Assembly (NCBI RefSeq): GCF_003576375.1
Contig: NZ_QWGE01000002.1
Location: 310,001 to 374,000 of the forward strand
Origin: Pontibacter oryzae
GTDB lineage: Bacteria > Bacteroidota > Bacteroidia > Cytophagales > Hymenobacteraceae
Length of the DNA stretch: 64,000 nt
Reading direction: 5' to 3'
The first letter of the stretch is position 1, and each line of letters starts with the position of its first letter. Position numbers and translations under genes: made by a program. Below are positions 1-64,000 of the stretch, one piece after another. The notes below the pieces were generated by a model, which did not search any database, was not told the origin of the DNA, and saw nothing but the letters and a program-made list of their open reading frames with translations.

Positions 1-2
1 CG

Positions 3-602
3 GATTTTGACCTGGAGAAGTATGTGGCCCTGGATGTGCTGGCTAAATACCGCAGGTTATACCTGGAGCAGCTGCTGCGGCAGGAACTCGGCGAGCTAAC
101 GGAGCTGGAAGAGGAGGTGGTGAAAAGTATAAACCAGCAGGAATTGCTCTCCAGCAACGTGGAGGAGGAGCTGGAAGAAGACATTAGCCTAGGCAACCGC
201 ATGGCCGACCACATAGCCAGCTTTGGTGGCAGCTGGACCTTTATAAGCATCTTTTTCTCTTTCCTGATGATCTGGATCGTAATTAACGTGTTTTGGCTGG
301 CATCGCGGCCCTTCGACCCATACCCGTTTATACTTCTGAATTTGATATTATCTTGCCTAGCCGCTATTCAGGCACCTATTATCATGATGAGCCAGAACCG
401 GCAGGAGACCAAAGACCGGCTGCGCTCTGAGCACGATTACAAAATCAACCTGAAAGCTGAGCTGGAGATAAGGCTGCTGCACGAAAAGCTCGACCACCTG
501 CTTATGCACCAGAATCAGCATTTAGTGGAAATACAGCAAATGCAACTTGACCTGCTGGAGGATATTATGCAGCAGGTCAAGGCCAAGAAAAACCATTCCT
601 GA
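3..602 (+). CDS. DUF1003 family membrane protein (5' end cut by window)
   Basis: The frame is open through the left edge of the window, so the true start lies outside; the first in-window start-like codon (GTG at 24) is probably internal. The visible 200 residues show a charged, coiled-coil-like N-terminal part, then two hydrophobic segments separated by the motif PFDPYPFILLN, followed by SCLAAIQAPIIMMSQNRQ and a charged C-terminal helix ending LHEKLDHLL. This order is the signature of the DUF1003 inner-membrane family, whose function is not established. It stands alone, with the next gene convergent 16 bp away. Family call is firm from the motifs; role unknown. Confidence 0.88.
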   Translation, partial: DFDLEKYVALDVLAKYRRLYLEQLLRQELGELTELEEEVVKSINQQELLSSNVEEELEEDISLGNRMADHIASFGGSWTFISIFFSFLMIWIVINVFWLASRPFDPYPFILLNLILSCLAAIQAPIIMMSQNRQETKDRLRSEHDYKINLKAELEIRLLHEKLDHLLMHQNQHLVEIQQMQLDLLEDIMQQVKAKKNHS

Positions 603-618
603 GAAGCTGTAGTTCAGG

Positions 619-1344
619 TTAAAGTATACTAGCCGTTGGGTCAGCACCGTTCCAGGTGCCTTCGCTGGCCACAGGCTTAAAACGGGCAAAGAGCTCTTCG
701 CTGTACCAGTTCTCTGATCGGGTGCGCCGCATTACCTCCTGGTGCAAGGGGCTTTTATACGCAAAATTTTTCATCGCCTCCACTGACTCCCAAACGCTAA
801 ATGTTGCCTGCCTAATAAACGGCAACTCACCAAGGCCAATAGAGCATATCAGACCCTCAGCATTTTCCAGCGCCTTGCTCGTGCTGGGCACAAAACGCCA
901 AAAGCCAGGCAAAGCACGCCAGTTTATACTTGCACGCGTTAGCACCGCAATGGGGCCGGAAGTATGCTTTTCAGGTAAGGTTGGGTTAAATGGCTCTTGC
1001 CCATCCCATTGCCCATGTTGCTGGTAAGGGTATAGTTTGATCGTCCAGGTTTCGTGGGTGTGTTGCCGGTATTCCTGCATGAGGGCGGAGTTTTGCAGAA
1101 AAGCATCGGCGTCAGCTTCTGTTTGCCAGGTGCACATGAGGCCGTAGCGCATAAAGTTCGGTTTTATACTAAAGCCTTTGCCGTGTCCGCTGCCCAAAAG
1201 CTTAAAGAACAACAAACCGGGTACTTTCTCTAGCTTAGGCCCTGAAGTACCCATCTGTGCCAGTCCCCAGCGCCAATGCCCCTTGCGTATGCCAAATAGG
1301 GTAAGGGTAGTTAATCGGGGAGAGGTAGATGCTAGTGGTGGCAT
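619..1344 (-). CDS. CrtA-like (spheroidene monooxygenase family) protein
   Basis: The 241-residue protein resembles the spheroidene monooxygenase (CrtA) family, heme enzymes that introduce keto groups into acyclic carotenoids. Family-like stretches are TTLTLFGIRKGHWRWG near the N-terminus, MCTWQTEADADAFL, LTRASINW, GFWRFVP and IGLGELPFIRQATFSVWES. I placed the start at the ATG at 1344; a TTG six codons upstream is in frame but less likely. No other carotenoid gene (crtB, crtI, crtD) is adjacent, so the substrate is inferred only from the family. The gene before it on the same strand is separated by a strong terminator, so it is probably transcribed on its own. Confidence 0.7.
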   Translation of the reverse strand: MPPLASTSPRLTTLTLFGIRKGHWRWGLAQMGTSGPKLEKVPGLLFFKLLGSGHGKGFSIKPNFMRYGLMCTWQTEADADAFLQNSALMQEYRQHTHETWTIKLYPYQQHGQWDGQEPFNPTLPEKHTSGPIAVLTRASINWRALPGFWRFVPSTSKALENAEGLICSIGLGELPFIRQATFSVWESVEAMKNFAYKSPLHQEVMRRTRSENWYSEELFARFKPVASEGTWNGADPTASIL

Positions 1345-1381
1345 TGGATACGCTGAAATCAAAGATTTATGTAGGTTAAAC

Positions 1382-1424
1382 GCAAAGCAGGAGGCGCTTC
1401 AACAAGAAGCGCCTCCTGCTTTGC
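1382..1424 (-). terminator. Strong hairpin terminator
   Basis: A 19-bp perfect stem (arms 1382-1400 and 1406-1424, core GCAAAGCAGGAGGCGCTT) with a 5-nt loop lies just downstream of the minus-strand PPOX gene and upstream of the CrtA-like gene. It lacks a long T run, so termination strength is inferred from the stem. Confidence 0.7.
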
Positions 1425-1453
1425 AATTACAGTAAAATAATTTAAGCCTGATA

Positions 1454-1954
1454 CTACAGGTTGATTTTCTTGTTTTCGCCGCCCTCGGCAGGCTCTCCGG
1501 TTATAGCGGCCTTCACCATACCGTATAAAACAACCATGGTATTATTCGGTGTATCCCAGTACTCCGCTTTCTGAATTGTAACCTTTATCAGGCCGATATT
1601 TTTATCCTCTTTGCCATCCGGGAACCATGCTTTCATATCAGAGCTCCAAAGCTCGTTAATTTTGTGCTGGTCACGAACTACCTGAGCCTTACCCGAAATA
1701 GAAACGTAAAGGTTGTCGTCTGGGTCGGCATAGCTTAGGTTTACATGGGAGTCGTGCTGAATCTCGTGCGTTTTACCTGACTCGTAGCCAGTAAAGAACC
1801 ACAGTTCGCCGTCGGGTTTGCTTTGCTGCGTTTTCATGGGGCGGCTGCGCAAGGTGCCATCGTCATCTACGGTGGTCATCATGGCAATCTTAACATCTTT
1901 GATTTTATGTATCAGCTTCTCTAAGTTCTCCTGTGTAGTTGGGTTATTGTTCAT
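1454..1954 (-). CDS. Pyridoxamine 5'-phosphate oxidase-fold stress protein (general stress protein 26 type)
   Basis: The 166-residue product has the split-barrel flavin-binding fold of the general stress protein 26 subgroup: KIAMMTTVDDDGTLRSRPM, LWFFTGYESGKTHEI, NLSYADPDDNLYVSISG and ELWSSDMKAWFPDG. Such proteins bind FMN, F420 or heme and their reaction is usually unknown. An upstream ATG at 1993 would add 13 residues, but the family begins near the chosen ATG. It is distinct from the true PdxH at 41882. A terminator follows it, so it appears to be a single-gene transcript. Confidence 0.85.
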   Translation of the reverse strand: MNNNPTTQENLEKLIHKIKDVKIAMMTTVDDDGTLRSRPMKTQQSKPDGELWFFTGYESGKTHEIQHDSHVNLSYADPDDNLYVSISGKAQVVRDQHKINELWSSDMKAWFPDGKEDKNIGLIKVTIQKAEYWDTPNNTMVVLYGMVKAAITGEPAEGGENKKINL

Positions 1955-2079
1955 AGCTTTATATCTTGTTTGTGTTAGATTACGGGCCTGCATGGCTTAG
2001 GGTTCATACTTCTGGTGAAGGCAACCCAGGCCCGGAAACACCGCTAAAACAATAGGCACAGCAGCATGTTTATACTTTC

Positions 2080-2087
2080 TACCTTTG
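2080..2087 (+). promoter_or_regulatory. Candidate -7 element TACCTTTG
   Basis: TACCTTTG matches the Bacteroidota -7 consensus TAnnTTTG and lies 10 nt before the GTG start of the ACP phosphodiesterase gene. No clear TTG -33 element sits at the expected spacing. The same octamer recurs at 44477 and, on the minus strand, at 38899 and 47218. Confidence 0.45.
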
Positions 2088-2097
2088 TTAAAAATAC

Positions 2098-2682
2098 GTG
2101 AACTACCTGGCCCACATCTACTTGTCTGGCTCCGATGAACAACTTTTAGTAGGCAATTTTATAGCTGATGCCGTTAAAGGCAAACAAGTTGAGTTATACC
2201 CGACTGGCATCGCCAAGGGCATCCGTTTGCACCGGCTCATTGATACGTATACCGATACGCATCCAGTAGTGGCTGAAACTAAAGCCCGGCTGCGCCCGAA
2301 GTATAAAAAGTTTGCACCGGTTATAGCAGATATGTACTATGATCATTTTCTGGCCAGAAATTTCAGTAAGTATGCCGGCATGCCTCTAACAGCATTTGTG
2401 CAACAGGCATACGCTACCATTCAACAGCAATATGATGTTCTGCCACCGCGCATGCAGCAGCTATTCCCCTACATGCAACGCCAGAATTGGCTGGAGTCAT
2501 ATGCCGAATTTCATGGTTTGGCACAGGCTTTCGAGGGCATGAGCCGCCGTGCAGCTTTTACGTCTGGTATGGAAACAGCTGGTGACGAGCTAAAGGCACG
2601 CTATACTTTTTACCAGGCGGACTTTGATGCTTTCTTTCCAGACCTTGAAGGTTATGTAGCTAAAGCGCTTATCCGGCTTTGA
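2098..2682 (+). CDS. acpH: Acyl carrier protein phosphodiesterase
   Basis: The 194-residue protein matches the ACP phosphodiesterase family, which removes the 4'-phosphopantetheine arm from holo-ACP. The family's N-terminal signature is present: MNYLAHIYLSGSDEQLLVGN, then FIADAVKG and GIRLHRLIDTYTDTHPVV with the conserved His/Asp metal ligands of an HD-like fold, and MYYDHFLARNF. Translation starts at GTG (2098), which exactly fits the conserved MNYLAH start. It is a single gene facing slyD, with a shared bidirectional terminator between them. Confidence 0.88.
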   Translation: MNYLAHIYLSGSDEQLLVGNFIADAVKGKQVELYPTGIAKGIRLHRLIDTYTDTHPVVAETKARLRPKYKKFAPVIADMYYDHFLARNFSKYAGMPLTAFVQQAYATIQQQYDVLPPRMQQLFPYMQRQNWLESYAEFHGLAQAFEGMSRRAAFTSGMETAGDELKARYTFYQADFDAFFPDLEGYVAKALIRL

Positions 2683-2763
2683 TGTAGGGTTTTTAAAATA
2701 GGCCTGCGGAATATGCAGACTTGAAAGCCCAAACCCCTAAAACTATAGGGGCCTACAATATAA

Positions 2764-2797
2764 ACGGGCAGCACAGGTTATACCCTGGCTGCCCGTT
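2764..2797. terminator. Bidirectional hairpin terminator between acpH and slyD
   Basis: Arms ACGGGCAGC/GCTGCCCGT, extended by CAGG/CCTG after one bulged A, close a 6-nt loop TTATAC. It lies between two convergent genes. Confidence 0.75.
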
Positions 2798-2818
2798 CTA
2801 TACATTGGTTTATAAATC

Positions 2819-3331: not shown

Positions 3332-3411
3332 CTGCTCTGTTTAAAATTTCAAAGGTTGAAGTTAAAAAATATACCACAGAACTCTAGCCTTTGTTCCAGA
3401 TTTCTACTTGG

Positions 3412-5355: not shown

Positions 5356-5360
5356 GTATG

Positions 5361-5397
5361 TAAAAAAGAAAGGCTGGTCGTGTTGCCCCAGCCTTTG
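5361..5397 (-). terminator. Terminator-like hairpin in the helicase leader
   Basis: AAAGGCTGG and CCAGCCTTT pair across an 10-nt loop, and on the minus strand the hairpin is followed by a T-rich run and then the helicase ATG at 5355. It may end the upstream coiled-coil gene (stop at 5520) or act as an attenuator for the helicase. Confidence 0.5.
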
Positions 5398-5519
5398 TCG
5401 TTGATGTATGTTTTAAAGGTAGAAAACTTGTATAACTGCTTTATCAGCCACAGCGCGTTGCATAAAGTATAACAGCATTTCGGCTGCTGATAATTCAACT
5501 ATTGTGAAAGCACACTAAA

Positions 5520-6149: not shown

Positions 6150-8492
6150 CTAATTTTTTTTAGGATGCTTGTAGAAGAGAAGCACTAGCACGGGCAGCAG
6201 AAACAGGTCGGCCACCACGGCAAAAACCAGCGTAAGGCTCACAAACAGGCCCACATAATACGTGGCATCAAAAGTGGAGAGCACCAGCGTCATAAAACCA
6301 GCCACCAGGATGCAGGATGTGATAATTATTGCCTTGCCCGCCGAGATAAAGCTGCGCTTAATAGCATACGGCAGCGATTTGCCCGATACCAGTTCCAGCT
6401 TAAGCTTACTCAGGAAGTGAATGGTGTCGTCTACGGCGATACCGAAGGCAATGGTGAAGATGATGGAAACCGAAACGGTCATGTTGATGCCCATAAAGCC
6501 CATCAGGCCCCCGATCATGAGCAGCGGAATGATGTTCGGGATAAGGGAGATTACAACCATGCGCAGCGAGCGGAAGATCAACCCTACGATCACGGCAATC
6601 ACGGCAAAGGCAATTAACAGGCCCTGCATCATGTTACTGGTTACGTAAGCGTTGTTCTTGTCCATCAGCAGCGCGCTGCCAGTAAAGTGTGTCTTTAGCA
6701 GCGTAGGGTTTATGTTCTGGCTGATATAGCTTTCTAAGGAGTCGTTGAGGATAGTTGCCTGCGCGCTGCCGATGTCTTTCATCTTACCGGTGAGCCTGCC
6801 TTCCGAGGCATTGGCGGTTACAAGGCTGCGCAGCTCGCTCCGGTTCTTGTAAGCCTGCAGGCGGCGCTTTATACTTTGCAACTGGCGCGTGTTTTCCGGG
6901 AGACTGTAGTACTCTTGCAGGCCGCCATTTTGCGCCCGGTTAAGGGTTTTAACCACAGTGGCAGGCGAGGAGATGAAATTTAGCCCGTAAGTTCCGTAAA
7001 GGTATTCCTCAATTTTGCTGATTTCCTCAAGCACCTCCAGGTCATACATGGTGTGGCCATCAGCCGCTATCAGGTGCATCTCGAAAGGCCGAACACCAGA
7101 GAATTTTTGCTCGAAGTAATTAAAATCCTGAATGATCGGGTCGTCATCGCCCAGGTCTTCCAGTAACGTCGTATCTACCTTTATCTGGCTAATGCCCAGC
7201 AAGCTGATGAGTATGACGGCAGCGCTGCTGGCAAGTATGGCTTTCGGGTGCACAAGCACATAACGCAGCATGGTGCGCAGCAGGATGGGCCACGATAGGC
7301 TTACACGGCGGGCACGCACAGGGTTAGGCTTTTTGATGAGTAGCAAAATGGCCGGTAATACCGTGAAGGCAAGTATAAAAGCCAGCCCAATGGAAATAGC
7401 GGTATACAGCCCGAAATTACGGATGGGCACGATGGCCGTGGTGAGCAGTGTAAGAAAGCCTACTGCCGTGGTAAATGAAGTAAGAAGCGTAGCCATACCC
7501 ACCTCTTTTAAAGTGATTTTAAGGGCCGGCAGCTTTTCCATACCGTTGCCAATCTCGGTAACATACCGCGACATGATGTGTATCACATCCGACATGCCAA
7601 CCACAAACATAATGGTAGGAAGCAGCACCGTCATTAAATCAATTGGTTTGTTAAAAAGGCCCATCACACCCATGCCCCAAACCACGGAGAGCAGCACTAC
7701 CACCAGTGGCACCAGCACGCCCCAGGCCGTCCGGAAGGTTATCCAAAGGAAGAAAATAACCAGCACAATAGAGGCCGACATGAAAATAGCCAGCTCTATT
7801 TTCATCTTCTCCACAAAAACCGATTGCGCCAGCGCCTTGCCCGCCACATGATGTTCCTTTAAATCGAGTTGCTCCAGTTTTTGGTTTAAGGCTGTGATTA
7901 GTGTATCACTGGCTTCTTTGCTGAGGTTGTCGGTGGTTTGCACGAACAACGAAATAGCGGTGGCATCTTCAGAAAACAGTGTGCCAATCAGTTCCCGGGA
8001 TGAGTAAATATTTATTGAATCCTGGGTATAGCGCTCAGGCTCTGAAGTATGCAGATAAGGGATCTCGAAATAGCCGAACTGCTCGATAACCGGGCTTTTA
8101 ACGGTAGTAGGAGAGAGCACCGACTCCACGTGTGGCTGGCGCATCATAAAACTGCTCAGGCTGTCAACCTTTGTCAGAAAATTTTTCTGAAATATACTTT
8201 TGCCCTGGTTGTCGAGCCCGATCAGAATATAGTCGTTGTCGTTTCCGAATTTTTCGCGGTAATCAAAATAATAGGCAAGGTCAGGATCGCCTTTCGGGAA
8301 AAAATTGTCGAAGTTATAGTCAAAACGTAGCTGGGAAGCAAAGTATATGCTCACAGCGGAAAGTATGGCCACCAGTAGCAGCACGAGGTAACTTAGTTTG
8401 CGGTAGTTCAAGAGAATTCTATACTTATGAATGCATTGTTTTCCAGACGCAAAAGTAACTCCTATACTTTGTTTTTGTTCGCCGGGAGCCAA
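6150..8492 (-). CDS. MMPL/RND family membrane exporter
   Basis: About 780 residues with two copies of the RND/MMPL half: a single N-terminal membrane helix, a large periplasmic loop, then a bundle of five helices, repeated. Typical pieces are FVVGMSDVIHIMSRYV in the first half and IAFGIAVDDTIHFLSKLK in the second, carrying the Asp residues of the transmembrane proton path. Members export lipids, hopanoids or other hydrophobic compounds; the substrate here is unknown. There is no in-frame ATG near the start: the first possible start is TTG at 8492, another is TTG at 8411, just before the first helix. The N-terminus is therefore uncertain by about 27 residues. Confidence 0.85.
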   Translation of the reverse strand: MAPGEQKQSIGVTFASGKQCIHKYRILLNYRKLSYLVLLLVAILSAVSIYFASQLRFDYNFDNFFPKGDPDLAYYFDYREKFGNDNDYILIGLDNQGKSIFQKNFLTKVDSLSSFMMRQPHVESVLSPTTVKSPVIEQFGYFEIPYLHTSEPERYTQDSINIYSSRELIGTLFSEDATAISLFVQTTDNLSKEASDTLITALNQKLEQLDLKEHHVAGKALAQSVFVEKMKIELAIFMSASIVLVIFFLWITFRTAWGVLVPLVVVLLSVVWGMGVMGLFNKPIDLMTVLLPTIMFVVGMSDVIHIMSRYVTEIGNGMEKLPALKITLKEVGMATLLTSFTTAVGFLTLLTTAIVPIRNFGLYTAISIGLAFILAFTVLPAILLLIKKPNPVRARRVSLSWPILLRTMLRYVLVHPKAILASSAAVILISLLGISQIKVDTTLLEDLGDDDPIIQDFNYFEQKFSGVRPFEMHLIAADGHTMYDLEVLEEISKIEEYLYGTYGLNFISSPATVVKTLNRAQNGGLQEYYSLPENTRQLQSIKRRLQAYKNRSELRSLVTANASEGRLTGKMKDIGSAQATILNDSLESYISQNINPTLLKTHFTGSALLMDKNNAYVTSNMMQGLLIAFAVIAVIVGLIFRSLRMVVISLIPNIIPLLMIGGLMGFMGINMTVSVSIIFTIAFGIAVDDTIHFLSKLKLELVSGKSLPYAIKRSFISAGKAIIITSCILVAGFMTLVLSTFDATYYVGLFVSLTLVFAVVADLFLLPVLVLLFYKHPKKN

Positions 8493-8679
8493 GTATACTT
8501 TGCGGCAGCGGCAGTAAATGTCTTTTACGTTGAAAGGCCTAACTGCTTCGGTTTGAAATCGCTGTGTCAGGCTGAAGCACCTGCCTGTTATACTTACTGC
8601 CCTGGTTGGGCTAAAAACTCAATTCCGAAGTAACGCAGAATATGTATCTTTAAGCTTCTACTCACGATTTATACTTACC

Positions 8680-29802: not shown

Positions 29803-32355
29803 TTAGGCTTCTTCAGATGCCTCCGGGTCAATCATAGTATCGGGCTGTAAAGAGTCCTCCGGGTTTGGTTCAGACTGTTCTAATACCAGTTCCTCTGCCG
29901 TTTCTTCTTCATTATCTACCTCTACCTTTGCGACTGAAGAAATCTGATCCCCCTCGTTTAGTTTCAGCAAGCGAACGCCTTGTGTGGCCCGCCCGATAAC
30001 GCGGAGCTCGCCAATACGAAGCCTGATCGTAATGCCGGAACGGTTGATAATCATCAGATCATCTGTATCCGTTACGCCTTTGATAGCGACAAGTTTACCT
30101 GTTTTGTCGGTAACGTTCATGGTCTTCACGCCCTTGCCGCCACGGTTCGTGATGCGGTACTCATCAAGAAGCGAGCGTTTGCCGAAGCCTTTTTCCGAAA
30201 CCACTAACAGGTCTGTATTGTCATTCTCTACACAAACCATACCAACTACCTTATCATCTGGTCCGGCAAGGGTCACGGCGCGCACACCTGCAGCCGTACG
30301 GCCCATGGCGCGCACCTGCGTTTCGTTAAAGCGGATAGCCCTCCCCGATTCCAGCGCAATCACTATTTCGCTGCTGGTATTTGTTAGCTGCACATCAAGC
30401 AGGCGGTCGCCTTCGTTGATTGAGATCGCGTTAATACCGTTCGTTCTTGGGCGAGAATAAGCCTCTAATACCGTTTTCTTGATGGTTCCTTGTTCGGTAA
30501 TGAATACAAGGTTATGGTTGAGTACGTAGTCCTGATTTTTAAGGTCATGCACGTTTAGCACGGCACGCACTTTGTCATCCTTCTCAATTTGAATGAGGTT
30601 CTGTATGGCACGGCCCTTTGTCGTCTTCCCTCCTTCCGGAATCTCGTATACCTTTAACCAGAATACGCGACCGAATTCTGTAAAGAACAGCATGTGGTGG
30701 TGCGTGTTGGCGATAAACAGGTGCTCGGTAAAGTCGCTTTCCTTGGATGCGGCCACACCTCTGGAGCCTACACCGCCACGGCTTTGGCTGCGGTACTCGC
30801 TCAGCGACGTGCGTTTGATATAGCCTTCATGAGAAATGGTAATTACCATGTTTTCTTCCGGAATCATGTCCTCGTAGGAGATATCGCCGGTGCTGGCTTC
30901 GATGCCTGTGCGGCGTCCGTCGCCGTAACGATCCTTAATTTCGAGAAGCTCGTCTTTGATGATCTGCATACGGCGCTCTTCGTTAGAAAGAATCTCGTTC
31001 AGTTCATCGATCAGTTTCATGATCTCCTCGAATTCCTGCTGGATTTTGTCACGCTCCAGGCCAGTAAGGCGCTGCAGACGCATATCCAAAATGGCGCGTG
31101 CCTGAATTTCTGATAACTCGAAACGCTCGATCAGGCCATTGCGGGCTATTTCCGGGTCGCGCGATGAGCGGATCAGGTTGATCACCTCATCCAGGTTATC
31201 AAGCGCAATAAGTAAGCCTTCCAGGATGTGTGCACGCTTCTTGGCTTCATCCAGTTCATACTGTGTTCTGCGTACTACTACCTCATGGCGGTGCTCCACA
31301 AAATACTGGATAAGCTCCTTCAAGTTCAGCGTCATTGGGCGGCCTTTTACCAGGGCCACGTTGTTAACGCCAAACGATGATTGAAGCTGCGTATACTTGT
31401 AAAGGTTGTTAAGAACAACGTTCGGAATGGCATCACGCTTCAGGTCGTACACAATGCGCAGACCGTCGCGATCAGACTCATCACGCAGGTCAGAGATGCC
31501 TTCGATTTTCTTATCGTTGATGAGGGCTGCCGTCTTCTCGATCAGGGAGGCTTTGTTTACCATGTACGGGATCTCCGTCACGATAATCTGCTCCTTGCCG
31601 CTGGCAGTTGTTTCGAAGTTCGCGCGTCCACGCATCAGTACGCGGCCACGGCCAGTTTCAAAAGCCGATTTCACGCCATCATACCCGTGAATGATACCAC
31701 CCGTTGGGAAGTCTGGCGCAGTGATGTGCTGCATCAGCTCGGCAATCGTAATTTCTCTATTATCAATATAGGCGATAATGCCATTTACTACCTCAGTAAG
31801 GTTATGCGGGGCCATGTTGGTGGCCATACCCACTGCGATACCGGAAGTACCGTTTACCAAAAGGTTTGGCAGCTTGGCAGGCATAACGCTCGGCTCCTTC
31901 AGGGAGTCGTCGAAGTTCGGCACAAAGTTTACAGTGTTCTTGTCCAGGTCAGACAGCATCTCGTCTGCGATGCGCTTGAGGCGGGCCTCAGTGTAACGCA
32001 TGGCGGCCGGAGAGTCACCGTCGATGGAACCATAGTTACCCTGGCCATCCACGAGCGGGTAGCGCAAAGACCAAGGCTGCGCCATACGCACCATGGTTTC
32101 GTACACGGAAGAGTCACCATGTGGGTGATACTTACCCAGCACCTCTCCTACGATACGCGCTGATTTCTTGTAAGCTTTGTTGTAAGATACCCCCAGCTCG
32201 GACATTCCGTACAGCACGCGACGGTGCACTGGCTTTAATCCGTCCCGAACGTCGGGTAAGGCTCTGGAAATGATAACAGACATTGAGTAGTCGATATACG
32301 CACCGCGCATTTCGTCTTCAATGTTGATCGGTATTATTCGTTCGCCTTCTGTCAT
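29803..32355 (-). CDS. gyrA: DNA gyrase subunit A
   Basis: The 850-residue protein is the breakage-reunion subunit of gyrase. The catalytic Tyr is residue 121 in [10 protein letters not shown]. The quinolone-determining region reads [14 protein letters not shown] with Ser82 and Glu86 at the E. coli Ser83/Asp87 positions, so no classic resistance change is seen. The C-terminal beta-pinwheel has the Bacteroidota form of the GyrA box ([10 protein letters not shown]) and a later [12 protein letters not shown] blade. It ends in a long acidic tail. The gene contains only one or two AAGTATA-type motifs, fewer than its surroundings. Confidence 0.97.
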
Positions 32356-38643: not shown

Positions 38644-38653
38644 TCTTAAAATG

Positions 38654-38726
<73 letters not shown>

Positions 38727-38783
38727 TTGTACTTATGTTGAACTAAAAAGCAGATGCAGTACAAACATTTGCTTTTGGAGTTG

Positions 38784-38856
<73 letters not shown>

Positions 38857-43886: not shown

Positions 43887-44436
43887 CTCCCCGCGCCGCA
43901 AGGAATTGCTGTCTGGGTTAGGCCTGACGTATGAATTATTGCTAAAGGAAGTACACGAAGATTTTCCGGAGCACCTGAAACGCGAGCAGGTTGCCGAGTA
44001 CCTTGCTTCGCACAAAGCGGATGCTTACAAGGAAGATGTTACAAATGAAGCGCTGATAACGGCAGATACCATTGTTTGCCTCGGCGACAGGGTGATGAAC
44101 AAGCCAGCCACGTATGAGGAGGCGCGCGAAATGCTGAAAGCCCTCTCCGGCCAGACCCACGAGGTGATCACGGGTGTTTGCATCCTCACCAAAGAGAAAA
44201 AAACGGTGTTTCATGATAGTACTAAAGTATACTTTAAGCCGCTATCCGATGCAGAGATCCATCACTATATAACGCATTATAAGCCCTATGATAAAGCCGG
44301 GGCCTACGGCATACAGGAGTGGATTGGCATGGTCGGTATTGACCACATCGAGGGCTCATACTTTAATGTGGTGGGCTTGCCGGTGCAAAAACTATATCAG
44401 AAACTGGTAGAACTGGGCATTCTTGCAATAACATAG
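43852..44436 (+). CDS. maf: Maf nucleoside triphosphate pyrophosphatase
   Basis: The 194-residue protein is a Maf-type house-cleaning pyrophosphatase that hydrolyses dTTP, UTP or modified nucleotides to monophosphates. Seen are LLLASNSPRRKELLSGLGL, the catalytic Asp in ITADTIVCLGD, KPATYEEAREMLKALSGQTH, and DKAGAYGIQEWIG. The start ATG lies inside the end of the DUF1015 gene. Confidence 0.94.
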   Translation: MNLQRPLLLASNSPRRKELLSGLGLTYELLLKEVHEDFPEHLKREQVAEYLASHKADAYKEDVTNEALITADTIVCLGDRVMNKPATYEEAREMLKALSGQTHEVITGVCILTKEKKTVFHDSTKVYFKPLSDAEIHHYITHYKPYDKAGAYGIQEWIGMVGIDHIEGSYFNVVGLPVQKLYQKLVELGILAIT

Positions 44437-53260: not shown

Positions 53261-53274
53261 AGTAGGTATACTTA

Positions 53275-55384: not shown

Positions 55385-56965
55385 ATGAGAAAGAAAGAAT
55401 TAGAACTGGTGCTTCCGCCAGAGCTCGCGTTTGATGCGCAGCAGCTAGACAGGGAGATCCTGAAAAGCGCACAGGTGCAGCCAGAAGATGTGAAATTCCT
55501 GCACCGTGTGAAGCGCTCCATCGATGCCCGCGGGCGAAGCGTACAAGTGCTAGTGCGGGCAGATGTATACCTGGATAACCCGCCGTCAGACATTATCTCC
55601 CCGAAGTATACTTACCCTGATGTTTCCAAGGCTAAGCAAGTTGTGATTGTCGGTGCCGGCCCGGCCGGGCTCTTCGCTGCGTTGCGCTGTATTGAACTTG
55701 GCCTGAAACCCGTGGTATTGGAGCGTGGCAAAGATGTGAGAAGCCGGCGCCGGGATTTGGCCGCCATCAACAAGGAGCATACCGTTAACCCTGACTCTAA
55801 CTATTGCTTTGGCGAGGGCGGAGCAGGAACATACTCTGACGGAAAGCTCTACACCCGTTCCAAAAAGCGCGGCGATGTGCAGCGGGTGCTCCAGATACTT
55901 GTGCAGCACGGTGCCACTCCTGATATACTATTTGATGCCCATCCGCATATCGGCACAAACAAATTGCCTAAGATCATCGAGGCGATCCGGGAAACAGTGC
56001 GCGAGGCGGGCGGTGAAGTGCTGTTTGATAAGCGCGTGAGCGATTTTATACTTGAGCATGGCGAGATGCGTGGCGTAGTAACACAAGACGGCCAGGAATA
56101 CCTGGGTGAGTCGGTTATACTTGCCACAGGCCACAGTGCCCGCGATATATTTGAGCTGCTGCACCACAAAGGCGTAACCGTGGAGGCGAAGCCTTTTGCC
56201 ATGGGTGTGCGCGTAGAGCATCAGCAGAGCCTGATCGACAGTATACAGTATAAGTGCGAGGACCGTGGGCCTTATTTGCCGGCATCGTCTTACGCGCTGG
56301 TGCATCAAACACATTATAACAACAAGAAGCGTGGCATCTTTTCGTTTTGTATGTGCCCGGGCGGTTTTATTGTGCCATCGGCAACGGCTCCCGGCGAGGT
56401 AGTTGTAAATGGTATGTCGCCGAGCCGCCGCGATTCAAAGTTCTCTAACTCAGGCATTGTGGTAGCCATTGAGCTGGAAGATATGGATCTTAGAAAGTAT
56501 GGCGCGCTGGCTGGCCTGCGCATGCAGCAGCAGTTGGAGCAGAAGGCTTGCCAAATGGCTGGCGGCACACAGGCCGCGCCGGCGCAGCTGCTCCAAGATT
56601 TTACCCGGTCCAAAGCTGGCGGCGAATTGCTGGATACATCGTACCAACCCGGTCTGGTGCCAGTGGATATGAATACCCTTTTTTCTGATGAGATGAGCTA
56701 TCGCCTGCGGGAAGGCTTCAAAGCATTTGGAAACAAAATGCGTGGTTACCTAACAAATGATGCACAGATCGTAGGTGTTGAAAGCCGAACCTCCTCACCT
56801 GTGCGCATCCCCCGCGACCGTGAAACGCTAGAGCATGTGCATGTAAAGCGCCTGTTCCCTTGCGGTGAGGGAGCTGGTTATGCGGGTGGCATTGTTTCTG
56901 CGGCTATGGACGGAGAGCGTTGCGCTGAAATGGCCGCTATGAAAGCCGGTGTTCGATCTGTTTAA
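55385..56965 (+). CDS. FAD-dependent oxidoreductase (COG2509-type)
   Basis: The 526-residue flavoprotein has an N-terminal 90-residue domain (ELVLPPELAFDAQQLDREIL; VKRSIDARGRSVQVLVRADV), then the dinucleotide motif VVIVGAGPAGLFAALRCIELG at about 95, a conserved GEGGAGTYSDGKLYTRSKKR, and FSFCMCPGGFIVPSAT and GEGAGYAGGIVSAAMDGERC at the C-terminus. This is a widely conserved uncharacterised FAD/NAD family. Reaction unknown. Confidence 0.9.
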   Translation: MRKKELELVLPPELAFDAQQLDREILKSAQVQPEDVKFLHRVKRSIDARGRSVQVLVRADVYLDNPPSDIISPKYTYPDVSKAKQVVIVGAGPAGLFAALRCIELGLKPVVLERGKDVRSRRRDLAAINKEHTVNPDSNYCFGEGGAGTYSDGKLYTRSKKRGDVQRVLQILVQHGATPDILFDAHPHIGTNKLPKIIEAIRETVREAGGEVLFDKRVSDFILEHGEMRGVVTQDGQEYLGESVILATGHSARDIFELLHHKGVTVEAKPFAMGVRVEHQQSLIDSIQYKCEDRGPYLPASSYALVHQTHYNNKKRGIFSFCMCPGGFIVPSATAPGEVVVNGMSPSRRDSKFSNSGIVVAIELEDMDLRKYGALAGLRMQQQLEQKACQMAGGTQAAPAQLLQDFTRSKAGGELLDTSYQPGLVPVDMNTLFSDEMSYRLREGFKAFGNKMRGYLTNDAQIVGVESRTSSPVRIPRDRETLEHVHVKRLFPCGEGAGYAGGIVSAAMDGERCAEMAAMKAGVRSV

Positions 56966-57611: not shown

Positions 57612-57626
57612 TTATACTAGCACGAG

Positions 57627-58451: not shown

Positions 58452-58555
58452 AGCATTTAGTTAAAATTAATTCTGCAGGCAGATTTGTTTCTTTCCGTTT
58501 TACCAGCATCCAGGTGTTTTGGTTTCCTGCGTTTACGAGCGATGGGCGTAAGCTA

Positions 58556-58602
58556 TAATAAAAGAGCGCCCGTGATACAATACCACGGGCGCTCTTTTAT
58601 TA
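58556..58602 (-). terminator. Strong terminator of the ybbAP-like transcript
   Basis: A 19-bp perfect stem (core AGAGCGCCCGTG/CACGGGCGCTCT) with a 9-nt loop and T-rich ends, 13 bp after the permease stop codon. Confidence 0.9.
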
Positions 58603-58615
58603 CCTTCCGGTTGTT

Positions 58616-61195
58616 TTAAGCCTCTCTTCTTAAGACTTCTAGAGGTGGTCTGTTCAGGATGCCACGGCTGTTAAGCATACCTATAAAAACTGTCAGCAGC
58701 GTTATGCCCAAGAAAACTGGTAATAGCGGCGACAGGTCTGGCACAAACGCAACCTCAAAGCTAAAGATCGCCAGCGCCCAACTAGCGCCCACGGCAAGTA
58801 TGATTCCGGTGCCAGCAGCCAGGGTGCCCAGAAGTAAATATTCAAAGGCGTTTATACTTAGTATTTGCCGACGACTGGCTCCAAGTGTGCGCAGCAGCAC
58901 GCTTTCCTGTATCCGTTGGTATTTACTGTTGTTGATCGAGCCTATCAAAACAAGTAAGCCAGTGGTTATACTGAATAACGCCATAAACCGAATTACGAAG
59001 GAGATTTTGCCAAGGATGTCATCCAGCGTCTCCAGAATAAGGCCAAGGTCAATAGCGGATACGTTAGGGAATTGCTGCACAAGCGTCTGCTGAAAACTTG
59101 CTGCCTGCTGGTCGGTTTCGGTGCGCGTCATGAGTACATGGAACTGCGGAGCCTCTTCAAGCACGCCTTTCGGAAACACAACCAGGAAATTGCTTTGCAC
59201 CCGGTTCCATTCTACTTCGCGCAGGTTAGCCACTACAGTGGGTAGTAAGGCTCCCTGCACATTAAACAAAAGGGTGTCTCCAAGCGCTACTTTTAGGCGC
59301 TCGGCGTATCTGTCTTCTAAAGAGATAGGTATAGGCCCGGTAGTGTCTGCTATTTTATTTTGCCAATCCCCTGCAATGCTGGTTTCAGAACTGATGAGCG
59401 AATCACGGTAGGTTACGCGGTACTCGCGGGTATAAGCCCAGTCCGGTATGCCGAGCGTGGTGTCTTTGCGCACGTCTGCGGCCGTGAGACCGCCAATCTC
59501 CTCCAAGCGCATAGTTACCACCGGCACGTACTGCAACACCGGTAGGCCTTGCGCTTTTGTAAGTTGAGCCACTTGGTCTTTTTGCGCGTTCTGAATATCA
59601 AACAGGACCAGGTTTGGCTGGTTTTCGCTACCGGCAAAGGCTACTTCGCTCAGCAGTATGCGCTGCATCAGGAAAAGCGTCGCGATGAGTGCAGTGCCCA
59701 AACCGATGGACACAGTTAGCAGTAACGTCTGGTTATTTGGCCGGTAGAGGTTGGCCAGGCTTTGACGCCATACATAGCCCCAACCCACCGGAAAAAAGCG
59801 TTTAACCAGCCACATCATTAATTTAGCAATGAGGGCAAGTATAAAGAACGACACAAACACCCCGGCTGTAAATGCCAACGCCTGAAGCCAGGTGCCAAGC
59901 TGCAGGTAAGAAAACACAAAGATGAATGCTACAATCAGGAAGTATACGGCCCATCGCAATTTGTCTTTACTACCGGAAGTATGCTCTACGCCTGCACGCA
60001 GCGTAATCAACGGCGACACGTTACGAATAGAAAGCAAAGGCAACAGCGCAAATAGCACAGATATAATCACGCCGATAGCAATTCCTTGAAATATGGCAGC
60101 CCAAGAAACCGCTACTGTAACCTCTACAGGTAAAAATGTCTTGAAAAGCTCAGGCAAGTATAATTGTATCAGGCTGCCAAGTATGGCTCCAACTATGGAG
60201 CCTATTAAACCCATCGCCATCACTTGGAAAAGGTAGATCAGAAAAGCCTGTGTGCCGCTTACGCCCAAACAACGCAGCACACCGATGCTCGGAAGTTTCT
60301 CTCGGATGTACACATGCACTGCACTGGCAACACCTACACAACCTAAAAGTAACGCCACAAAGCCAACTAAGGCTAGAAAACGGGCAAGGTCTTCGTATGC
60401 CTTTCCGGTGCTTTCCTTCCTTGTCTCGATGGTGTCGAAACCAAAGCCCGCTTCTTCCAAGCGTGGTTCCAATTTTTTCACCAGCTTATCAGGGTCGGTT
60501 GAGGCAGGTAGTTTATAATATTGGTAATAGCTGATGCGGCTGCCACGTTGCAGCAGCCCGGTTTCTTCGAGGTAGCGGCGCGGAATGTAGACAGCCGGGG
60601 CAATGGTTGCCGTCATGGCCGTTTGGCCCGGGATTTTATTCAGCGCACCTGCAATCTCAAAGGTCTGGTTTCCTACTTTAATGCTGTCGCCGGGTTTGGT
60701 ATTGTATTGTAGCAGCAAGGTATGGTCTACAAGAGCTTGCCTGCCGCTGCTTCTAAAGGTGCTGCTAGCGCTTGCGGGTTCAGTTTCGATGGCGCCATAG
60801 TATGGAAAGCCGCCTTGCTCCAGTGCCCTTACCTGCACCAGACGTGTTCCGCCAGTGGATTTAAATAGCACCATTGATACAAAGCGCACCTCATCGGAAC
60901 GGTCGCCGCCCGTACCAATAGAATCCAATAGCTGCTGCATCTCAGGTTCAATCTCTTTATTTGCGGCAATGACCAGATCGGCCCCTATAAGCGATTTTGC
61001 CTGGCTGTCGATGTCGGTGCGCAGGTTATCAGAGAATGAGTTAATGGCCACAAGTGCGGCGATGCCCAACACGATGGAGGATATAAACAGCGCCAACCGG
61101 CTGCGGTTTCGCCTGCTGTCGCGCCAAGCCATTTTTAGGAGCCAGCGTAAGTTTAGTGGGCGTTCGGGTATATTAGGGAGAATTGATTCTGACAC
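58616..61195 (-). CDS. FtsX/YbbP-like ABC transporter permease
   Basis: The 859-residue protein has an N-terminal helix (about 30-48) after MAWRDSRRNRSRLALF, a periplasmic MacB-like core domain, FtsX membrane bundles near residues 270-400 and 760-850, and a second periplasmic domain between extra helices. This about ten-helix layout matches E. coli YbbP. Such permeases with a cytosolic ATPase probably move lipids or lipoproteins. Translation starts at GTG (61195). The ATPase is encoded just upstream (49 bp) on the same strand. Confidence 0.9.
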   Translation of the reverse strand: MSESILPNIPERPLNLRWLLKMAWRDSRRNRSRLALFISSIVLGIAALVAINSFSDNLRTDIDSQAKSLIGADLVIAANKEIEPEMQQLLDSIGTGGDRSDEVRFVSMVLFKSTGGTRLVQVRALEQGGFPYYGAIETEPASASSTFRSSGRQALVDHTLLLQYNTKPGDSIKVGNQTFEIAGALNKIPGQTAMTATIAPAVYIPRRYLEETGLLQRGSRISYYQYYKLPASTDPDKLVKKLEPRLEEAGFGFDTIETRKESTGKAYEDLARFLALVGFVALLLGCVGVASAVHVYIREKLPSIGVLRCLGVSGTQAFLIYLFQVMAMGLIGSIVGAILGSLIQLYLPELFKTFLPVEVTVAVSWAAIFQGIAIGVIISVLFALLPLLSIRNVSPLITLRAGVEHTSGSKDKLRWAVYFLIVAFIFVFSYLQLGTWLQALAFTAGVFVSFFILALIAKLMMWLVKRFFPVGWGYVWRQSLANLYRPNNQTLLLTVSIGLGTALIATLFLMQRILLSEVAFAGSENQPNLVLFDIQNAQKDQVAQLTKAQGLPVLQYVPVVTMRLEEIGGLTAADVRKDTTLGIPDWAYTREYRVTYRDSLISSETSIAGDWQNKIADTTGPIPISLEDRYAERLKVALGDTLLFNVQGALLPTVVANLREVEWNRVQSNFLVVFPKGVLEEAPQFHVLMTRTETDQQAASFQQTLVQQFPNVSAIDLGLILETLDDILGKISFVIRFMALFSITTGLLVLIGSINNSKYQRIQESVLLRTLGASRRQILSINAFEYLLLGTLAAGTGIILAVGASWALAIFSFEVAFVPDLSPLLPVFLGITLLTVFIGMLNSRGILNRPPLEVLRREA

Positions 61196-61244
61196 AGCGT
61201 GCTAATGTAAATTGCGTTGAAAGTGAAACGGCTGTATTTGTTGC

Positions 61245-61943
61245 TTACGATTGGCTTACTGCGGATGTAACCTCATCGGAAACAATGGCTCCGCCTTTAA
61301 TGCGGATGATTCTGTCGGTTTTGCCGGCAAGTTCCAGATCGTGGGTTACCAGCACAAGCGTAGTGCCTGCTTCGCGGTTCAGGTCAAAGAGCAGCCGCTC
61401 TACCTTTTCGCCGGTTTCCTCGTCCAGGTTTCCGGTAGGCTCATCGGCAAAAAGTATAGCTGGTTTGTTAGAGAAAGCCCTGGCCAGCGACACGCGTTGC
61501 TGCTCGCCACCGGATAGCTGCGTTGGGTAATGGTCGTGGCGTTCGGCAAGGCCTACCCGGCCCAGCAGTTCCATAGCTTGTTGCTGCACATTGCGCTCGC
61601 CACGCAGCTCCATGGGCACCATCACGTTTTCGAGGGCAGTAAGCGTTGGTATCAGCTGGAAGTTTTGGAAGATAAAGCCCACGTATTGATTGCGAACCTG
61701 CGCGCGCTGGTCCTCTGAAAGCTTATCCAGTGTGACGCCGTTAAGTATGACGGAGCCGGATGAAGCACGGTCCAGGCCTGCGCAAAGGCCAAGCAACGTT
61801 GTTTTGCCACTGCCCGATGGCCCTACTATGGCGCATACATCGCCGGCCTCTAATGAAAAGTTTATACCTTGCAGTACCGTCAGGTGGCGGTCGCCGCTGT
61901 TGTAGGTTTTAGTCAGATTCTGGATATCAAGGATAGTAGACAC
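61245..61943 (-). CDS. YbbA/LolD-like ABC transporter ATPase
   Basis: The 232-residue ATPase starts at GTG 61943 (MSTILDIQNLTKTY); a longer frame from 62027 adds an implausible N-terminus. Motifs in order: Walker A VGPSGSGKTTLL, Q-loop GFIFQNFQLIP, signature LSGGEQQRVSLARAF, Walker B ILFADEPTGNLD and the switch His in LVTHDLEL. It pairs with the downstream YbbP-like permease and is divergent from the tesA-like gene, the same arrangement as in E. coli. Confidence 0.92.
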   Translation of the reverse strand: MSTILDIQNLTKTYNSGDRHLTVLQGINFSLEAGDVCAIVGPSGSGKTTLLGLCAGLDRASSGSVILNGVTLDKLSEDQRAQVRNQYVGFIFQNFQLIPTLTALENVMVPMELRGERNVQQQAMELLGRVGLAERHDHYPTQLSGGEQQRVSLARAFSNKPAILFADEPTGNLDEETGEKVERLLFDLNREAGTTLVLVTHDLELAGKTDRIIRIKGGAIVSDEVTSAVSQS

Positions 61944-62092
61944 GTTTGAGAACAGTTTTTTTAAAGTATACGCAGCCGTATGTGCTGCATTAATTGATCG
62001 GACGCAGACCTGCGTGCCACAGAACAAAATAACTGATACGGCACGTTATAGGTTTAGAATAGCCCAAGTATAAATGTATTAAATTAAATTTT

Positions 62093-62812
62093 ATGAATAT
62101 AAAAAATAAGGTTTTAGCAATTGCATGTGCAACTGTGGTTGGCCTGGTTGCTTGCAATGAGGTTGACTCTACTAGTGAAACAGAAAGCGCAGATAGAACT
62201 GAAACAGCAGAAAATACTGAACCATCCACTCAGAAATCATCTGAAACGCAGACTATACTTTTCTTTGGCAACAGCCTCACTGCCGGTTATGGTCTTGAGC
62301 CAGACCAGGCGTTTCCGGCACTTATACAGCAACGCATCGACTCACTAAACTTGCCTTACAAGGTTGTAAACGCAGGCGTAAGCGGAGAAACAACAGCTGG
62401 TGGCAAAAGCCGTGTCGACTGGCTGCTGAAAAAACCTGTTGATATTTTTATACTTGAGCTAGGCGCCAATGACGGCTTGCGCGGCATAAATCTCTCCGAA
62501 TCGTACGCAAACCTGAAGACGATTATTGAGAAAGTACGGGCCAAGAACCCCGATGTGAAAATTGTTCTGGCAGGCATGCAGATTCCGCCAAGTATGGGCC
62601 AAAAGTATACTTCTGAGTTTAAGGAAATGTATACGCGCATAGCAGCGGAAGAGAATGTGCTGCTGATTCCGTTTTTACTAGAAGGCGTTGCCGGAGACCC
62701 CGAACTTAACCAAGCCGATGGCATACATCCTACGGTTGAGGGCCAAAAGATCTTGGCTGATAATGTCTGGGAAGTGCTGGAGCCTGCGCTACTGGCTGAA
62801 GAGGCCGCTTAG
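62093..62812 (+). CDS. tesA: TesA-like SGNH/GDSL arylesterase lipoprotein
   Basis: The 239-residue protein has a lipoprotein signal (lipobox ending LVAC, Cys21), an acidic Ser/Thr-rich linker to about 54, then the SGNH hydrolase: block I FFGNSLTAGYG with the nucleophile Ser (Asn replaces the usual Asp of GDSL), block II NAGVSGETTAGG, block III ELGANDGLRG and block V ADGIHPT with Asp and His. It hydrolyses esters or thioesters at the cell envelope. Divergence from ybbA-ybbP copies the E. coli gene order. Confidence 0.9.
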   Translation: MNIKNKVLAIACATVVGLVACNEVDSTSETESADRTETAENTEPSTQKSSETQTILFFGNSLTAGYGLEPDQAFPALIQQRIDSLNLPYKVVNAGVSGETTAGGKSRVDWLLKKPVDIFILELGANDGLRGINLSESYANLKTIIEKVRAKNPDVKIVLAGMQIPPSMGQKYTSEFKEMYTRIAAEENVLLIPFLLEGVAGDPELNQADGIHPTVEGQKILADNVWEVLEPALLAEEAA

Positions 62813-62926
62813 ACCGGTTTATTGCCCTACCTCGAAAAAAAGTTAGAAATTTTCACTGATTTAATAACCTTCTTAAACCAGTGGCGTAATAAAGTATGGC
62901 TAAAAGTTGAAAATTTGATTTTCACA

Positions 62927-62966
62927 AAACAAAAAACGACTCCTATTTTGGAGTCGTTTTTTGTTT
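62927..62966 (+). terminator. Strong terminator downstream of tesA
   Basis: AAACAAAAAACGACTCC pairs perfectly with GGAGTCGTTTTTTGTTT around TATTTT. Confidence 0.9.
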
Positions 62967-63297
62967 CTGCCCTATCCTTTTTAGCCTTCTCTATTTCTAA
63001 ATCAGATTTAATAGCTATCTCAAGCACTGTAATAATAACTGTGCTTCACATGACTGTTCTGCCTTTTCTTAAATTGCACCTATTCTAATAGCTTTTACAA
63101 TTGCTAAGTCGTTTATTTTTCAGAATTTATAGTTGATGCACAGGTATTTATAGTTTCTGGATTTGTTGTGCCGAAAAAAAGATTAAAATTTATACTTCCT
63201 CAGGCAACCTAACGCGGGGCACCTTACATCTAAGGTGTAAAGAGCAGGCAATGCTCCGGGCATAAAACGGAAATTGTATAGCAAAACTTTTACAAGC
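62967..63297. promoter_or_regulatory. Upstream region of the ECF sigma gene
   Basis: Together with the terminator, 62813-63297 is free of convincing genes. This AT-rich part must hold the sigma-factor promoter. A 7-bp perfect inverted repeat CACCTTA-CATC-TAAGGTG at 63220-63237 lies about 60 bp before the start and could be an operator or leader hairpin. No clear TAnnTTTG element was found. Confidence 0.4.
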
Positions 63298-63831
63298 GTG
63301 ACAGAAGCAGAACTGATAGCAGGATGCCAACAGGCAGATGCAAAGGCGCAAAAGCTCCTTTACGAGCGATTCGCCGCGCAGATGTATGGTGTGTGCCTGC
63401 GCTATCTAAAAAACGAGATGGATGCCGAAGAAGCGCTGCTCAACGGGTTTATGAAAATCTATCAATACATAAACCGCTTTGAGGCTAAAGGAAGTTTTGA
63501 AGGTTGGGTAAGGCGCATAATGGTAAACGAAGCGCTCGCGTTTCTCCGCAAAAAAGAGCCGCTATACATGGGCATCGAGGAGAACCACATACAGGTTGCC
63601 GGCAATACTTCTGCAGATCAGGATTTGGCAGAGGGCGAGTTGATGGCACTGCTGCACACGCTCCCGGCCGGATACAGGGCTGTTTTTAACCTATACGCCA
63701 TAGAAGGTTACTCTCACAAGGAAATAGCTGATATGCTCGGGATAACCGAGGGAACATCGAAGTCGCAGTTAAGTAAGGCCCGTGGCATGTTGCAGCGCCG
63801 CCTGGAAGGCCACAAGGCTATTGCCATTTAA
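63298..63831 (+). CDS. ECF-type RNA polymerase sigma factor
   Basis: The 177-residue protein (from GTG 63298, MTEAELIAGCQQADAKAQ) has sigma region 2 (LLYERFAAQMYGVCLRYLKN, DAEEALLNGFMKIYQYINRF) and region 4 (LPAGYRAVFNLYAIEGYSHK, EIADMLGITEGTSKSQLSKA). A TTG eight codons upstream is also possible. The family-typical start and the sequence EAELIAGC favour the GTG. It is followed after 15 nt by a gene cut by the window end, most likely its membrane partner or anti-sigma factor. Confidence 0.9.
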   Translation: MTEAELIAGCQQADAKAQKLLYERFAAQMYGVCLRYLKNEMDAEEALLNGFMKIYQYINRFEAKGSFEGWVRRIMVNEALAFLRKKEPLYMGIEENHIQVAGNTSADQDLAEGELMALLHTLPAGYRAVFNLYAIEGYSHKEIADMLGITEGTSKSQLSKARGMLQRRLEGHKAIAI

Positions 63832-63832
63832 C

Positions 63833-63839
63833 AAGGAGG
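63833..63839 (+). promoter_or_regulatory. Unusually strong Shine-Dalgarno AAGGAGG
   Basis: AAGGAGG lies directly after the sigma-factor stop codon and 7 nt before the next ATG. Such strong sites are rare in Bacteroidota, whose start regions usually lack them; none of the other genes in this window shows one as good. Confidence 0.7.
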
Positions 63840-63846
63840 AAAAATC

Positions 63847-64000
63847 ATGAAACCAGAAAACATAGATAACCTATTCAAAGAGCGATTGGGCAACAGCACC
63901 CCCACTCCTCCCGCCGACCTGTGGGCGCGCCTGCAGGAACGCATGGAAGCAGAGGAATTGACTGCCGCCGCTCCACAGCCACAAGCTGAAAAGCCCGTAA
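63847..64000 (+). CDS. Start of presumed anti-sigma or sigma-linked membrane protein (3' end cut by window)
   Basis: The open frame runs from ATG 63847 to the window end (51 codons): it begins MKPENIDNLFKERL and contains PTPPADLWARLQERM, then an Ala/Pro-rich stretch. The FKERL...PPADLW pattern is common at the N-terminus of the proteins encoded right after ECF sigma genes in Bacteroidota. Those proteins usually have one membrane helix further on, beyond this window. Confidence 0.7.
   Translation, partial: MKPENIDNLFKERLGNSTPTPPADLWARLQERMEAEELTAAAPQPQAEKPV

Follow-up and report, generated by a model that had tools for sequence, protein, structure and literature searches.

An iterated, asymmetric DNA word with clade dialects in Pontibacter, possibly an uptake-sequence-like self tag

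Introduction

Uptake sequences have been described for two proteobacterial families, where they are tied to type IV pili, and Chi is an asymmetric short recombination-hotspot word of AddAB/RecBCD that is biased to the chromosome. Here we describe a short word, AAGTATA, that is iterated through a 64-kb stretch of the Pontibacter oryzae genome (the window, in whose numbering positions are given unless a contig is named) and that recurs, in dialects, across the genus. We find that this word fits the DNA uptake sequences of Neisseriaceae and Pasteurellaceae better than it fits HIP1 or Chi. Its dialects, the bias of its enrichment to the chromosome and its soft flanks speak for a signal of self-recognition, akin to an uptake signal, a reading absent from an earlier note on the window, and by analogy with the described systems we put the chance that the word is an uptake-sequence-like self tag for DNA at about even.

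The DNA uptake sequences (DUS) of Neisseriaceae form clade dialects with a constant CTG core, are conserved above their flanks and are absent from recently acquired genes (PMC3630211, PMC2397512). The Pontibacter word resembles them in being short, asymmetric and present in thousands of copies, in having clade dialects around a constant core (TAT in its three main words), and in being more conserved than its flanks and scarce in acquired DNA. It differs in being an AT-rich word of 7 to 10 bp in another phylum, with uptake as its proposed role, and a type IV pilin (and so ComP) was not found in 50 genomes. The uptake signal sequences (USS) of Pasteurellaceae are the 9-mers AAGTGCGGT and ACAAGCGGT, whose receptor is reported as unknown, with a type IV minor pilin predicted (PMC3630211, PMC12616744); they too are asymmetric, with two versions reported, and belong to another phylum. 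HIP1 and the alternate highly iterated palindromes (HIPs) of cyanobacteria are GC-rich, linked to methylases and replaced by other words in some genomes (PMC4390886). The Pontibacter word shares their high iteration and replaceability, but is asymmetric, AT-rich and linked to neither methylase family tested. It is like Chi in its asymmetry, its chromosome bias and the presence of an AddB-like protein, and unlike Chi in having no strand skew, in having three dialects within one genus and in not being seen in nine genomes that keep this protein.

Results and Discussion

In the window AAGTATA occurs 106 times (45 copies on the plus strand and 61 on the minus strand). An order-2 Markov model predicts 11.7 copies and a model trained on motif-masked sequence 8.1, 100 dinucleotide shuffles gave a mean of 7.4 and a maximum of 13, and the heptamer ranks top in the window by order-2 z-score. 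The earlier note's claim of a copy number far above composition on both strands is thus borne out.

Window 125..131, plus strand: first AAGTATA copy, as an example (motif count)

Across the whole genome (4,227,908 bases in 9 contigs) we counted 6,705 copies, 3,343 on one strand and 3,362 on the other, versus 422 (213 and 209) for the reversed-heptamer control ATATGAA, a ratio that is flattered by some depletion of the control (0.64x). A 464-kb sample, made up of the window and positions 1 to 400 kb of contig 1 of the same genome (G000), holds 691 copies versus 65 to 91 expected. By either measure the enrichment is well over the twofold limit that the earlier note had set for its claim, and the density in this genome is 1.6 AAGTATA per kb.

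The seventh base of the word is selective. AAGTATG is also enriched, with 426 copies versus 66 to 83 expected in the 464 kb and 59 (35 plus, 24 minus) versus 8.5 to 11 in the window. Neither AAGTATC nor AAGTATT shows this: the counts are near expectation in the 464 kb (62 and 69 copies), and the window has no excess of them (11 and 6). The word unit is therefore the asymmetric AAGTATR, in which R is A more often than G and is rarely followed by T; the window has 80 AAGTATR on the plus strand and 85 on the minus strand. After AAGTATA the next base is T in 8% and A in 51% of copies (n=691), and A is favoured both before and after the word. One-mismatch forms reach 1.0 to 2.8 times expectation when the change is at positions 1 to 3 and 0.9 to 1.6 times when it is at positions 4 to 6. 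This strict TAT core with graded flanks is as would be expected of graded binding by a predicted reader. The mismatch forms tolerated in this genome (AGG at 2.1x, AAC at 2.4x) are the dialects of other Pontibacter.

The excess cannot be traced to coding. In 30 synonymous-codon shuffles of 325 open reading frames (ORFs) that are 150 aa or longer and together span 387 kb, 76.2 +/- 7.4 AAGTATA were obtained versus 486 present, and 63.8 +/- 6.9 AAGTATG versus 345. These excesses, 6.4-fold and 5.4-fold, are raised in all 6 classes of frame and orientation, in agreement with the earlier note's view that the process acts on a DNA word and not on protein, and a codon effect is rejected on the same ground. 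Of ATA codons 15%, and of AGT codons 11%, lie wholly inside a copy. A compositional or codon artefact that needs no factor at all could appeal to the trimers that the word shares with common codons, but it is refuted by the five- to six-fold excess over synonymous shuffles and by the clade-limited conservation described below, as well as by the seventh-base specificity and the dialect switches; we give it next to no credence.

We next consider the word's counterparts in 50 Pontibacter genomes, surveyed over 15 to 80 kb each, with classes set by eye from the top heptamers (assignments are weakest for G011, G036, G069, G022, G019 and G007). AAGTATA marks 22 of the 50, including G027 and G033, which also carry AACTATA; AGGTATA, mostly with CTATACC, marks 12; and AACTATA, with ACTATAG, marks 5. 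Together these words, which keep the core TAT constant, account for 39 of the 50 genomes. Weak other words were found in G036 (GGGTATA) and G069 (CCATATA), and no outstanding word was seen in the sampled regions of the remaining 9. The alternative dialects are likewise strongly enriched: AGGTATA was counted 304 times versus 37.9 expected in G005 and 307 versus 35.4 in G067 (200 kb), and AACTATA 251 times versus 17.8 in a 100-kb pool drawn from five genomes. Each dialect has its preferred flanks (AAGTATA-A-A, C-AGGTATA-G-C and AACTATA-G), and all three are seldom followed by T. Whole-genome counts cover AAGTATA, with the other two words known from regional samples; the ratio of AAGTATA to its control is 8.8 to 38.5 in 18 AAGTATA genomes, 1.3 to 4.5 in 19 other Pontibacter and no more than 0.4 to 1.8 among 22 genomes from the order's other families.

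We placed the dialects on a tree of the 50 genomes built from gyrA, which also anchors the 20-kb regions used below. The loci closest to the window's gyrA belong to Pontibacter.

Window 29803..32355, minus strand: gyrA (Pfam DNA_topoisoIV, 5.4e-171)

On this quick tree, in which 15 of 50 inner branches are open, the AGGTATA genomes group as one clade, a second clade takes in the AACTATA genomes along with both mixed ones, and AAGTATA is scattered over the remaining branches, including the two earliest-branching rows; parsimony requires 9 class changes. The nine word-free genomes are larger, averaging 5.80 Mb versus 4.63 Mb for the other 41 (P = 2e-5, from rounded sizes). This difference is suggestive only, with 3 to 4 independent contrasts on the tree and none in the other direction. 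The gyrA match of one genome (G032:C1:2080846-2083389) has one TAA counted inside it.

Comparison of sister species shows that each of two pairs conserves its own dialect. We aligned two pairs at ~91% identity, G013/G062 (189.5 kb) and G005/G067 (176.4 kb), which cover two of the three dialects, AAGTATA and AGGTATA. In the first pair AAGTATA is kept in 81.6% of 860 cases (mean of same-GC heptamers, 60.0%) and the foreign AGGTATA in 55.2% of 87, near background; in the second, AGGTATA is kept in 83.6% of 560 (same-GC mean 60.4%) and the foreign AAGTATA in 63.6% of 88, again near background. AAGTATG, the weaker and less enriched form, is kept in 77.0%, and AAGTATC (41.9%, n=43) and AAGTATT (41.2%, n=34) are poorly conserved. 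The effect is limited to the word itself, where per-base divergence is 0.023 to 0.050 versus 0.087 to 0.105 beside it, or ~2.5 to 3 times less. Divergence flanking AAGTATA (0.103 and 0.105) exceeds the aligned average (0.088 with gaps), and flank divergence above average has likewise been reported for neisserial DUS (PMC2397512). Among the non-identical partners of AAGTATA in G013/G062, 122 of 158 have one mismatch, spread over all seven positions, and just 8 of these 122 carry A in place of G at position 3, where a methylated C would lie on the other strand. A single biased mutation is rejected, since the sisters differ at all seven positions and by many substitution types. The conservation of each pair's own dialect, together with mismatches over all positions, thus points to reduced loss of the word, and not merely to raised gain or to one type of mutation.

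Enrichment is weak on the plasmids examined. Three plasmids, sampled over 306 kb (120 kb of the 204-kb plasmid, the 116-kb one entire and 70 kb of the 74-kb one, two of them sharing related stretches), have 147 AAGTATR versus 86.9 expected (1.7x), whereas the 20-kb gyrA regions of the same strains have 110 versus 13.7 (8.1x; P = 2e-30). Small contigs of G020, G001 and G021 match plasmids of P. actiniarum, P. akesuensis and P. kalidii, respectively, at 100% identity over their first 20 kb. Within the P. oryzae genome, a 24-kb stretch of contig 1 (~238.7-262.6 kb), picked for its low count, has 16 AAGTATR versus 9.7 expected (1.6x, against a reference of 7.3x). With a lowered GC content of 0.44, a phage-type tyrosine integrase, two pirins and several oxidoreductases, it is likely a genomic island, judging from its gene content and composition. 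Scarcity on plasmids and island fits a signal tied to the exchange of chromosomal DNA, and recent arrival is an alternative reason for it.

These data also bear on whether the word is the binding site of an abundant chromosomal protein, acting in nucleoid structure, segregation or repair, that is under weak selection everywhere and whose specificity drifts between clades. Graded specificity would suit such a protein, as would the near-random spacing of the word (coefficient of variation 1.13), its occurrence on both strands and its 1.9-fold greater density outside ORFs (3.93 per kb, compared with 2.12 per kb within ORFs that reach 100 aa). The orientation of neighbouring copies is random as well, and there is a mild skew relative to gene direction (381 same, 480 opposite). 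Weak plasmid enrichment (1.7x) is, however, unexpected unless the protein, or the selection, is confined to the chromosome, and no regularity of spacing was found in 400 kb. We consider this explanation quite improbable and rank it behind the two that follow.

The earlier note had likened the word to HIP1 and had drawn attention to AAGTATACTT, which arises where two copies overlap; four such pairs lie in the window.

Window 8491..8500, no strand assigned: overlapping pair forming AAGTATACTT (one of 4 in the window)
Window 44225..44234, no strand assigned: overlapping pair forming AAGTATACTT (motif count)
Window 55604..55613, no strand assigned: overlapping pair forming AAGTATACTT (motif count)
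Window 62603..62612, no strand assigned: overlapping pair forming AAGTATACTT (motif count)

Over the genome AAGTATACTT has 220 sites versus 2 for its reversed control, but it shows no excess over its halves. The 4 window pairs compare with 8.0 expected from AAG beside TATA, or 4.4 given the GTATAC core, and the 21 in 400 kb of contig 1 with 37.0 or 18.9. G013 has 9 versus 52.6 expected, and in G005 the palindrome test gave 6 versus 21.5. AACTATA genomes are nearer palindromic (26 versus 19.5), as is the weak word of G069 (5 versus 1.0). A palindromic unit is therefore rejected for this genome, where the count is at or below that of two dense overlapping words, and AAGTATACTT does not stand as a special larger unit.

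Two methylase families were sought across the 50 genomes. MethyltransfD12 (PF02086) occurs in 13 (10 of 41 word-bearing, 3 of 9 word-free) and N6_N4_Mtase (PF01555) in 31 (27 of 41 and 4 of 9), and neither was found in G000. The presence of these Dam-type and N6/N4 methylases does not track the word, which makes them unlikely drivers (C5 and type I families were not searched). A HIP1-like drive, in which a methylase of shifting specificity and a methylation-directed bias of mismatch repair would create and protect the word, could draw on the replacing alternates of HIP1, each of which has its specific methylase (PMC4390886), and on a similar density (~one per kb for HIP1 versus 1.6 AAGTATA per kb). 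Set against this are the asymmetry of the word with its palindrome unfavoured in this genome, the two methylase families that depart from the word's pattern and were not found in this genome, the expectation that plasmids should be marked too unless recent, and the lack of a single favoured substitution between sisters. In the strict sense the likeness to HIP1 is accordingly not supported, and we regard such a drive as improbable, if less so than the binding site of a chromosomal protein. A hybrid of HIP1-like drive and uptake is possible; Campylobacter reportedly discriminates transforming DNA by methylation.

Strand distribution bears on a further alternative, that AAGTATR is a Chi-like recombination signal for AddAB, a helicase-nuclease whose degradation of broken DNA from the cell itself it would stop, and that this keeps it in the genome. 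The word is asymmetric, chromosome-biased and conserved, and an AddB-like PDDEXK_1 (PF12705) protein of ~1,000 aa is encoded in 50 of 50 genomes. However, no strand skew was found in the 464 kb covered (465 forward and 487 reverse on 400 kb of contig 1, which has one GC-skew sign and is less than a whole replichore; 80 and 85 in the window), and the genome totals for AAGTATA are even. In addition, nine genomes have the AddB-like protein with no word seen, and it would be unusual for Chi to have three dialects within one genus or to be rich in AT. We judge a Chi-like role unlikely, although it leads the alternatives.

We favour an uptake-like tag because three signatures of DUS (dialects around a constant core, conservation above flanks and scarcity in acquired DNA) were matched in the sequences, though type IV pili were not, because a Chi word would lack its skew, and a HIP-type word would lack its palindrome and, so far, its methylase. 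Under this proposal, a predicted surface or periplasmic receptor would bind AAGTATR in extracellular DNA, and same-species DNA would thereby be preferentially taken in, with ComEC as the candidate inner-membrane channel, and recombined. Over many rounds of such uptake and recombination, DNA that bears the word would replace copies that had been lost and carry new ones to other parts of the chromosome, which would yield both the excess and the conservation of the word. A change in receptor specificity would rewrite the word genome-wide and so generate dialects, and loss of specificity would let the word decay, leaving genomes without it. We infer that a protein reads the word, that the step is DNA uptake and that ComEC is the channel; a sequence-reading protein, which the earlier note had raised as one possibility, is the likely cause. 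The fuller picture is of pilus-free natural transformation in Pontibacter through a predicted receptor for a 7- to 10-bp, TATA-built word, in a genus that would be in the midst of dialect change, from AAG to AGG in one clade and from AAG via mixed AAG/AAC to AAC in another, with repeated loss. We hold this picture tentatively, at somewhat below even confidence.

Several observations weigh against an uptake-like tag. We know of no transformation of any Pontibacter, and a literature search gave no report of it among the matches listed. Flank divergence is barely raised for AGGTATA (0.087 and 0.090 versus 0.085) and is not raised for AAGTATG (0.092 and 0.072). Conservation, while high, is shared with other heptamers: AAGTATA ranks 44 of 3,982 in G013/G062, where one anagram is kept in 83.6%, and AGGTATA ranks 6 of 3,324 in G005/G067, where AAGTATG (69.6% of 69) and AACTATA (66.7% of 45) are also somewhat over background. 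Inheritance of sites across dialects was not clearly seen in a comparison with 20 of the 22 AAGTATA genomes (the two mixed ones excluded), in which AGG sites align to AAG in 9.3% versus 7.0% for pooled one-off words. The candidate machinery adds three further points. The type IV pilin domain N_methyl (PF07963) was found in 0 of 50 Pontibacter genomes, with 8 of 14 control genomes positive; ComEC is present in all 50, including the 9 that are word-free; and a relative of the outer-membrane competence barrel of Riemerella and other Flavobacteriaceae was found in 15 of 50 (14 of 41 word-bearing, 1 of 9 word-free), in a search that took 18 candidates per genome to scoring, out of 35 to 90 from a first look.

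With no pilin found in the 50 genomes, a pilin receptor is rejected and any receptor must differ from ComP. A precedent is Riemerella anatipestifer, which is naturally transformable with no pilus homologues detected, and in which a transposon screen showed that transformation needs ComEC, an outer-membrane protein, a DUF5689 surface protein, an HHH protein and others (PMC8459023). R. columbina prefers its own DNA, and the putative words listed for it are A/T-rich k-mers only (PMC7965970). A strong DUF5689 protein was present in 12 of 12 Flavobacteriaceae genomes tested (family by genus name), and its gene adjoins the barrel in the four loci read. In Pontibacter, DUF5689 was found in 22 of 50 genomes (17 of 41 word-bearing, 5 of 9 word-free), in proteins of 413 to 450 aa with other neighbours (some SusD-like by eye) or of 1,099 to 1,299 aa. 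This protein is rejected as the reader, its presence being off the word's pattern and the proteins unlike those of Flavobacteriaceae. The Pontibacter barrel occurs as one orthologue, which shares 66 to 85% identity with the G000 copy, and is followed by a lipoprotein-like ORF of 375 to 411 aa with ACDPMEDVYDELD near its start. As a general receptor it too is rejected, since its patchy presence does not track the word.

G000 contig 1, 924444-927056, strand not stated: competence-barrel relative, orthologue of the Flavobacteriaceae barrel

The comEC genes of G009 and G022, both word-bearing, have one internal stop each, for which sequencing error is possible.

In the open-licence PMC literature, no uptake sequence or iterated word was reported for Pontibacter, Hymenobacter, Spirosoma, Cytophagales or Bacteroidetes among the matches listed, where the Riemerella study was the sole one seeking such words in the phylum (PMC7965970), and the available parts of two computational papers (PMC1939737, PMC5217627) contain no Bacteroidota or Cytophaga terms. 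Words of this kind are already known. What would be new, if the function holds, is the occurrence of one in this phylum, without pili and with this number of dialect changes. No uptake system based on a sequence word would then precede it beyond Neisseriaceae and Pasteurellaceae. It would be a third case, in Bacteroidota and lacking pili, in which dialects, intermediate genomes with mixed words and losses are laid out in 50 genomes of one genus, and perhaps one instance of a wider habit of Cytophagales. The question of how such words spread, by selection for safe recombination or by molecular drive, would become testable on several independent changes, and the word would give direct access to the DNA receptor of Bacteroidota. 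Should some other protein read it, a word present thousands of times that switches dialect would still be a strong natural experiment.

Spirosoma is possibly a second genus with such a word. ACGTAGY, dispersed over both strands, occurs 46 times versus 5.9 expected in 22.4 kb of Spirosoma profusum (7.8x), 19 times versus 5.4 in S. endophyticum and 3 times versus 5.0 in S. oryzae, and T is rare after it. In 22.6 kb of Rhodocytophaga aerolata, AAGTATT was counted 20 times versus 7.9 expected and AAGTATTC 10 times versus 1.5. Finally, the window contains an adjacent pair of tRNA-Thr(TGT) genes on the minus strand, at 38653-38726 and 38783-38856.

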